34,940 nucleotides of DNA from an uncultured Erysipelotrichaceae bacterium (GTDB taxonomy: Bacteria > Bacillota_I > Bacilli_A > RFN20 > CAG-826), in contig CACZZG010000009.1 of NCBI GenBank assembly GCA_902785645.1, forward strand, positions 5,321 through 40,260, written 5' to 3'. Under the pieces are notes generated by a model. It saw nothing but the letters and a program-made list of their open reading frames with translations. It had not been told where the DNA came from and made no database searches. Shown one piece after another: positions 33,327-34,940 of this stretch. Each line of letters begins with the position of its first letter. Positions within the stretch are counted from its first letter, which is position 1. A program made the translations under genes and the position numbers.

Positions 33327-33390
33327 TAAAGGATTAATATTTTAGGTCATTAAGTATAGACTATTAATATCTCATTAACAATATATGTAT

Positions 33391-33441
33391 CCAAGGGATG
33401 CATTATTGATTGACCCCTAGGGGTCGCTTTTTCTTCCTTGG
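33391..33441 (+). repeat. Nested palindromes in the element's left end
   Basis: CCAAGG (33391-33396) and CCTTGG (33436-33441) enclose the perfect 14-bp palindrome GACCCCTAGGGGTC (33412-33425), followed by GCTTTTTCTT. The inner part may terminate transcription entering from outside or form a 5' hairpin of the element's RNA. Confidence 0.55.
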
Positions 33442-33453
33442 TAAAATATATAA

Positions 33454-33612
33454 GGATAGTCGCGGGCTATACTATTACTACTGCTAGACAGTCTGATTTT
33501 CATACTGAGGACGCGGCTTCCCTATTAAACGTTGTTTGTAGGATGAGGCGTTGACCTTCTATTTGAGATATTACGTTAGGGAAGCTCAGCGAATTGCCCA
33601 AAGTAACTATCC
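33454..33612 (+). ncRNA. Candidate bridge RNA of the IS110 element
   Basis: About 159 nt closed by GGATAGT (33454-33460) with ACTATCC (33606-33612) and GGGC (33464-33467) with GCCC (33596-33599). Inside are a hairpin CAGTCTGA-TTT-TCATACTG (33489-33507) and a large stem-loop: GCTTCCCT (33516-33523) with AGGGAAGC (33578-33585), AACG with CGTT, and a 42-nt loop (33532-33573). The loop carries TTGTAGG, identical to the element's right end, and TGAGATATTA, complementary to its left end. The earlier hairpin carries TAGAC and TTTCATA, matching the left and right flanks. This is the arrangement known for IS621-type bridge RNAs. Boundaries are approximate. Confidence 0.65.
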
Positions 33613-33629
33613 AAAAGGAGGTTTTATTT

Positions 33630-34844
33630 GTGCCTACTTATTTTGTGGGTATCGATGTCAGCAAGTTTAAGCACACCTGCTGTATCATTGACGGAGACGG
33701 AGAAATAATTAAAAAGAGTTTTGACTTTTCCAATTCAAAAGAAGGATTTGATTCATTGATAGAAACATTTAAATCAATTGATCAATCTGAATCATTGTTT
33801 CAAATAGTGATGGAAGCAACTGGTCATTATCATGAATGTTTATTTAGATATTTAGTTGCTAATAATTATTTAGCCCAAATTAAAAACCCTGTCGTGATAG
33901 CGAGATTTAAACAATCTGAATATCTCGACAAGGCGAAGACTGATAACCTTGATGCACTTATTATTGCCCAATATGCATCAAAGCATCCATTCAGCCCTTC
34001 TACGATTAAATCATACAACATTGAAAGAATTAGGCGTATATCTAGAGCAAAATACTTTCTTTATCAAGACAAGGAAAGAACAATTAATCATCTTCATCGA
34101 TATCTAGATGAATCTTTTCCAGAATTAGTACCTTTCTTAAGAAAAAGAGGAGATATTAAGCGATATCAAGGTCGTAATTTCTTTGATTCAAAAACTACTT
34201 TATGGTTTGTGGAGAACTTCCCATCCGCGAAGAAATTTTCTAATGCAAGAAGTGAAACAGCGGAAAAACTTAGAAGAATGTCAAAAGGTGCGTTTTCTTT
34301 AATTAAATTCAACGAACTTAGAAATATTGCTAAAAATTCTATTGGTGTTTCATTCCAAGAAACCGAAGAAATAATAATCCAATTAGTTCAAGAACTTAGA
34401 AACATCCAAGAAAGGAATGACAAATTAGATGAACTTTTAATCCCTTTAATTGACGAAACATCACCTAACTTATTAACTGTTCCTGGGATTGGTTATCGTT
34501 TAGCGGGTCTACTTATTAGTGAAATAGGAGATGCGTCCCAATTTCCAAGTGCGGATAAGATAATTAAATTTGCAGGACTAGATGTAAGAGTTTATCAATC
34601 TGGAACTATTGAAAAGCATGGGGCGATTAGAAAAAGAGGATCACCTTTACTTAGATATGCTTTATTCCAAGCAGCGGAGAAAGCTCGTATTCATTGTCCT
34701 GAGATTGCAGAATTCTATTCAAAGAAAAAGAGTGAAGGAAAACATCCAATTTGTGCCTTAACTCATACAGCAAGAAAGATACTTCGAATTGTTTGGGCTT
34801 TATTAAAAACTGGGCAAAACTATAGTCGATCTATCTCTGATTAG
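33630..34844 (+). CDS. IS110-family transposase (DEDD RuvC-like recombinase)
   Basis: A 404-residue enzyme with the N-terminal DEDD RuvC-like domain: FVGIDVSKFKHT (D9), MEATGHYHE (E62) and AKTDNLDALIIAQYA (D105, D108). A coiled helical linker leads to the C-terminal transposase_20 domain: LLTVPGIGYRLAGLLISEIG, and AIRKRGSPLLRYALF with the candidate catalytic serine S338. I chose GTG 33630, 8 nt after AAAGGAGG; the TTG at 33594 lies inside the RNA structure. The gene ends in TAG and appears intact, so the element may still be active. Confidence 0.94.
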   Translation: MPTYFVGIDVSKFKHTCCIIDGDGEIIKKSFDFSNSKEGFDSLIETFKSIDQSESLFQIVMEATGHYHECLFRYLVANNYLAQIKNPVVIARFKQSEYLDKAKTDNLDALIIAQYASKHPFSPSTIKSYNIERIRRISRAKYFLYQDKERTINHLHRYLDESFPELVPFLRKRGDIKRYQGRNFFDSKTTLWFVENFPSAKKFSNARSETAEKLRRMSKGAFSLIKFNELRNIAKNSIGVSFQETEEIIIQLVQELRNIQERNDKLDELLIPLIDETSPNLLTVPGIGYRLAGLLISEIGDASQFPSADKIIKFAGLDVRVYQSGTIEKHGAIRKRGSPLLRYALFQAAEKARIHCPEIAEFYSKKKSEGKHPICALTHTARKILRIVWALLKTGQNYSRSISD

Positions 34845-34940
34845 TGCTTAAATCAGCAGAATATTTAAAACTTTATCATAGATACAGTTTTTTCGTCGTG
34901 GACTTTAAGAAAAAAATACTTGATAATTGTAGGTATGAAA

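Follow-up and report, generated by a model that had tools for sequence, protein, structure and literature searches.

The last 1.6 kb of the analysed stretch of DNA (the window, 34,940 nt; G000:C9:5321-40260) contain an IS110 element, and the locus raises the question of where this element begins and ends, what its non-coding RNA reads, and why it is found where it is. The recombinase matched the Pfam domains PF01548 (6.9e-38) and PF02371 (3.9e-21), and its profile matched the solved IS621 and ISCro4. The two parts by which the IS110 family is recognised, the DEDD RuvC-like domain and the Tnp domain with a catalytic serine, were both present. The catalytic residues lined up with those of IS621 (chain 8wt6_A), and D9, E62, D105, D108 and S324 were invariant in an alignment of nine recombinase relatives. 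About 260 non-coding bases upstream of the recombinase gene form the left end and encode the predicted RNA. By every feature examined the element is a member of the IS110 group. Its parts and borders are as follows.

33355 to 33368, + strand: left half of the host target, TATAGACTATTAAT, the -10-like part of the promoter that the insertion interrupts (from empty sites of relatives)
33369 to 33370, + strand: AT core at the left junction, corresponding to bases 1 and 2 of the target ATG (from junction comparison)
33371 to 33629, + strand: left non-coding end, conserved among copies from 33368/33369 on
33617 to 33621, + strand: ribosome-binding site GGAGG of the recombinase gene (from sequence)
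33630 to 34844, + strand: IS110 DEDD recombinase gene, 404 aa, with a GTG start where most relatives have ATG
34845 to 34934, + strand: right non-coding end, ending in ...GATAATTGTAGGT (from conservation)
34935 to 34936, + strand: right copy of the AT core, which forms the ATG of the downstream gene (N-ATG at all 53 genuine right junctions)
34937 to 34940, + strand: start of the host right target half (GAAA), which runs on in C17 (ATGAAAGAATTAG...; from synteny with relatives)

Further copies were sought in the element's own genome (G000, a 1.17-Mb assembly of 47 contigs) and in 224 genomes of the family. The own genome yielded a second left end in C20 and right ends in C13 and C17, and the family search added more left and right ends. 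The assemblies that supplied these copies are fragmented metagenome assemblies, and not every copy is independent of the others. The same genome also carries a second IS110 on a truncated contig (L005/L012, G000:C36), with a recombinase 52% identical to that of the window; its right end precedes the ATG of a lipoprotein gene. No relative was found among viral contigs and no near match among plasmids; the relatives in phage records were all at about 32% identity or less.

The copies, dozens of them from related gut Bacilli, fix the ends of the element. The preliminary description had placed the left end at 33362 with a TA core. Every other copy diverges upstream of 33368/33369, which puts the left end at 33369-33371; position 33362 therefore lies in host DNA, as sequence is shared only from about 33368/33369 on. 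The core is AT, at 33369-33370 and 34935-34936, and not TA: at left junctions the base preceding AT follows the host site, whereas at right junctions the element determines it. At 42 left junctions this base was T in 29, A in 7 and C in 6 cases; at the right junctions subfamilies s1 and s2 had T, apart from rare exceptions, and s3 and s4 had C. The left core itself was AT in 39 and GT in 3 of the 42 junctions, preceded by a variable host base. The three GT cores (L025, L062, L115) are as expected if the target start codon was GTG and was turned into ATG by the insertion; IS621 tolerates both GT and AT cores (PMC11208158). Both junctions show a 2-bp core and no longer target duplication, and the empty site deduced from relatives agrees with this.

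In the window copy the left junction reads TATAGACTATTAAT|AT. Empty sites with the same motif were found in two genomes of the same genus, TATAGACTATAAAAG|TATGAAAG in G005 and TATAGACTATTAAGG|TATGAAAG in G002. The gene at the empty site is divergent from deoD and encodes a protein of 125 aa (MKELE..ITHIKILDTIS..). The ortholog of this protein in the own genome begins exactly at the right junction in C17, and C17 is therefore the right flank of the window copy. The C20/C13 pair would then be a second insertion, before an M6-peptidase lipoprotein gene. In four genomes left ends (L011, L059, L061, L069) were observed beside homologous flanks (...GATGATGATTTCTAA...), a shared or repeated site.

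The left end was already described as encoding an IS110 bridge RNA with target and donor guides in the order known from IS621, and the related copies strongly support this. The elements of the predicted RNA are listed below.

33442 to 33447, + strand: TAAAAT, a possible -10 box for transcription of the bridge RNA, suggested by its position and its conservation in the alignment
33454 to 33606, + strand: predicted bridge RNA, ends approximate, target loop followed by donor loop (from the two-loop consensus fold)
33467 to 33480, + strand: left target guide CTATACTATTACTA (from flank tracking)
33480 to 33492, + strand: apical hairpin of the target loop, ACTG-CTAGA-CAGT, which holds TAGAC and is constant despite different flanks
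33497 to 33504, + strand: right target guide TTTTCATA, complementary to TATGAAA(A) (from flank tracking)
33517 to 33584, + strand: donor-binding loop with its closing stem (CTTCCCTA / TAGGGAAG; from the consensus fold and compensatory changes)
33536 to 33542, + strand: left donor guide TTGTAGG, equal to the right end of the element (identical to 34927-34933)
33564 to 33570, + strand: right donor guide TGAGATA, complementary to (T)ATCTCA of the left end (from sequence)

Covariation folding, as proposed in the preliminary description, was carried out with RNAalifold on 14 sequences. It gave the closing stems of both loops, and these covary, with two-sided compensatory changes in 11 of 25 pairs. 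The apical hairpin stem also covaries across the subfamilies (ACTG:CAGT, ACAG:CTGT, ACGG:CCGT, GCAG:CTGC). The single-sequence folding energy of the RNA was no better than that of shuffled sequences (z -0.6 to -1.2), so that the support for the fold is comparative only. An Rfam scan gave no match at E<=1, and no -35 sequence was recognised for the candidate -10 box from which the RNA would be transcribed. At 33464-33468 the target-loop stem of the window copy lacks 4 nt (ACCT) which all aligned relatives keep in some form; the window copy may be impaired by this loss.

The aligned left ends were nearly identical except for two segments of the target loop. One of them resembles TATAATNNNNNTA and is hypervariable among copies otherwise about 95% identical. 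In 24 pairs this left target guide matched its own left flank with p<=5e-5 by several statistics when shifts were tolerated; matching in a fixed register was weaker (p 0.0013). A scan of the RNA for left-flank tracking, using 10-nt windows and 21 de-duplicated elements, gave a single peak (z 6.4) at 33467-33480. The guide of the window copy matched its own flank at 9 of 11 positions in register and that of L035 at 14 of 14. In G118 both the guide and the flanks of the copies contain TAAAATA in place of the TATAAT of other copies. The segment TAGAC, which had been taken for the left target guide, does not serve as such: it is constant in copies with unrelated flanks, does not track the left flank (z about -1.1) and sits in the apical hairpin. 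The second variable segment is the right target guide. TTTCATA (33498-33504), proposed for this role before, was borne out by the other copies, in which it changes together with the right flank (TTTACATA with TATGTATA, TTTCCATA with TATGGAAT; p 6e-4). The covariation of guides and flanks on which the preliminary description had staked its model was thus found for the target guides. Contigs ending at 33466 could suggest that copies in one genome differ in the guide; this reading was rejected, as their overlap of about 99 nt fits an assembly k-mer length.

By sequence comparison the donor guides matched the own ends in the closest subfamily, with other matching sequences in s2 and s3. TTGTAGG stood as proposed, and s3 has ATTGTTGG both at the left donor guide and at the right end. 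The 10-nt donor match at 33564-33573 held in part: TGAGAT(A) is the right donor guide, with AACAGAT facing ATCTGTT of the left end in s2, but the extra 3 nt fall in the host flank. In other copies the same TGAGATATTA stands opposite different flanks, so that this part of the match is due to chance. Of the four guides originally named, three (TTTCATA, TTGTAGG, TGAGAT(A)) are therefore retained. The distance from the guide-matched -10 to the core varied by -1 to +2 nt relative to the guide, for which a rigid contiguous duplex of left target guide and target does not account. The guides carry C at the position where the second core base is T.

The nature of the target, which had been overlooked, became apparent from the flanks. 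A search for the right-end pattern gave 55 hits, two of which were left out as chance: L012 s1, which lies inside an antisense transposase ORF, and L082 s3, which has no element context. All 53 genuine right junctions read N-ATG. Wherever enough sequence was available, the ORF opened at the junction was a real gene. Known-family matches were obtained for most of 19 downstream proteins scanned, with NCBIfam for Fmt, TruB, RimM (twice, in different genera), SurE, Spx, PlsY, a Sir2-type deacylase, YfcE and XerC/D, and with Pfam for a response regulator, DnaD, M6 peptidase, aldose epimerase and others. As several NCBIfam matches start within the first few residues, the junction ATGs are mostly true start codons. 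The exceptions, L088 and L099, open very short ORFs and have probably decayed. On the left side TATAAT (<=1 mismatch) was present 4-9 nt before the core in 37 of 42 flanks, perfectly in 24; shuffled flanks gave 8.2, with a maximum of 19 in 500 shuffles, and a control window 15 nt upstream gave 6. A -10 box a few bases upstream of N-ATG identifies the site as the junction between the promoter and the start codon of a leaderless gene. Leaderless-type starts of this kind were found, within about 400 kb of the own genome, at about 45 of 299 long ORFs (about 15%) versus 27 of 854 control ATGs (3%).

The ends of the element carry two further signals.

33411 to 33436, + strand: intrinsic-terminator-like hairpin (TGACCCCTAGGGGTCG plus a T run), from a terminator scan, with a putative terminator function
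34899 to 34927, + strand: outward promoter-like pair TGGACT-17-GATAAT, placed 7 nt upstream of the start codon and agreeing with the consensus at 9 of 12 bases

The right end was kept in dozens of copies up to the T preceding ATG. GATAAT was kept at the same spacing before ATG in subfamilies s1 to s4, while the -35 part was clear in the closest subfamily only. The 7 nt between GATAAT and ATG are the spacing of a leaderless promoter. A promoter scan alone did not place the right-end pair above chance. The region 33369-33440 folded with z -3.66, and the terminator-like hairpin at this edge would stop the transcript of the host promoter. When the ends are joined, both promoter hexamers come from the right end, with the terminator-like hairpin behind them in the left end; the sequence permits a circle-junction promoter. 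In six right-end remnants of other genomes (L099, L100, L101, L125, L126, L127) the last 40-70 nt, about from the -35 to ATG, were kept before a gene start, which suggests that they are promoters retained by the host.

These features are best explained by an IS110 element that carries a bridge RNA directed at the starts of leaderless genes and brings a replacement promoter in its end, with a probability of roughly 0.85 judged from sequence comparison. The left target guide, a -10 box plus spacer (consensus TATAATNNNNNTA), would read the bottom strand and the right target guide (of the TTTTCATA type) would read TATGAAA in the top strand, so that together they would spell TATAAT-N5-T-ATGAAA. The donor loop would read the joined element ends (TTGTAGGT-AT-CTCA), and the recombinase would exchange strands at the AT core, the first two bases of the target ATG. 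As the core lies within ATG, the element would insert between host promoter and start codon. The right end TGGACT-17-GATAATTGTAGGT would then set a new -10 seven bases before ATG; the severed host promoter would thus be replaced by the pair TGGACT-17-GATAAT, and the effect on the host gene would be near-neutral.

It is possible, though rather doubtful, that an ordinary IS110 bridge RNA recognises an AT-rich site, that gene starts are hit since the motif is common, and that the right-end promoter is the circle-junction promoter usual in such elements and does nothing for the host gene. The promoter which IS621-type elements form across their joined ends (PMC11208160) and the unremarkable promoter scan agree with this. 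However, every one of the 53 junctions is at N-ATG, whereas only 13 of 43 TATAAT-N4-8-ATG sites in about 400 kb lie in frame near the start of a long ORF, and more misses would be expected unless selection removes them. The remnants, which retain roughly the -35 to ATG only, also argue against it. Less probable still is broader insertion with persistence only before start codons whose promoter was restored. Insertions into coding sequences would be selected against in genomes of about 1.2 Mb, but the guides themselves spell -10 plus ATG and change with the flank, and selection acting on hosts would not put this into the RNA; such survivorship may add to the targeting. It is very improbable that the guide takes its sequence from the flank once the element has inserted, by gene conversion or templated acquisition. 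The hypervariable left target guide would fit this, as would the guide-flank match that survives spacing shifts; yet G118 and G150 each have two copies with one guide at different sites with the same motif, and the flank therefore does not rewrite the guide. The exact model of the preliminary description can be dismissed: all eight strings quoted in it are present where it placed them, but the copies diverge upstream of 33368 and TAGAC does not follow the flanks.

The proposed programming of the bridge RNA for leaderless gene starts would set the window element apart from the closest known systems. Like IS621 and the IS110 group (Durrant 2024 PMC11208160; Hiraizumi 2024 PMC11208158), it has a DEDD-Tnp recombinase and a bridge RNA in a long left end, the target loop before the donor loop, left guides equal to the top strand, right guides complementary to it, and a 2-bp core. 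Unlike IS621, its target is a promoter/start-codon junction and not a repeated palindrome, its AT core belongs to the start codon, its right end contains both promoter hexamers, and the spacing between the match of the left target guide and the core varies. The ISEc21 and IS1111-type seekRNA elements (PMC11187229) likewise have an RNA from a non-coding region with one segment per target strand, and natural retargeting is reported for them. IS1111 has its RNA downstream of tnp and subterminal inverted repeats; the RNA of the window element lies upstream of tnp and differs from IS1111 in this respect. Gene-start targeting by these elements was not found in the passages of PMC11187229 that were consulted. 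Nor was targeting of leaderless genes, start codons or Shine-Dalgarno sites by an IS110 found in searches of open-access papers. Relative to that literature the target logic and the promoter replacement look new.

A sister IS110 clade (L157-L173, L040, L048, L216-L268; 31-39% identity) occurs in the same family and in Clostridia. Its right junctions read GTCTCC or GCCTCC after ...AATAGTTA, a right end related to AATAGTTG of subfamily s2, and a Shine-Dalgarno complement was found in 33 of 48. Its right target guides, for example AAGGAGGC, contain AGGAGG-like text and matched their own flanks (own 206 versus 118 permuted, p<=5e-5). A divergent ORF starts within 24 nt in 26 of 36 left flanks. From its junctions this clade is one that inserts antisense into Shine-Dalgarno sites. 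It shares with the window element the RNA layout and guides that name gene-start signals, but differs in the antisense orientation, the Shine-Dalgarno target and the text of the right target guide. Copies in Anaerococcus (L231-L233, L246, L251) appear beside short intergenic repeats and not at gene starts; the target therefore changes within the wider clade.

There is about an even chance that a broad IS110 group has bridge RNAs that spell the consensus of gene-start signals, either a sense -10 plus ATG or an antisense Shine-Dalgarno sequence, as well as ends that carry replacement signals, so that transposition would be nearly neutral for the host. A further advantage of this target may be that RNA polymerase has the very same stretch melted already. 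The element would be a natural, repeated case of a transposon guide RNA that reads a functional consensus and not one fixed sequence, which would explain the spread of IS110 across many genera to harmless sites. The dozens of guide-target pairs are a resource for the targeting rules of bridge RNAs, including the AT core and the variable spacing, and in uncultured bacteria the elements show which start codons are the true ones. Once the rest of the element has decayed, the right end may persist in the host as a mobile promoter.
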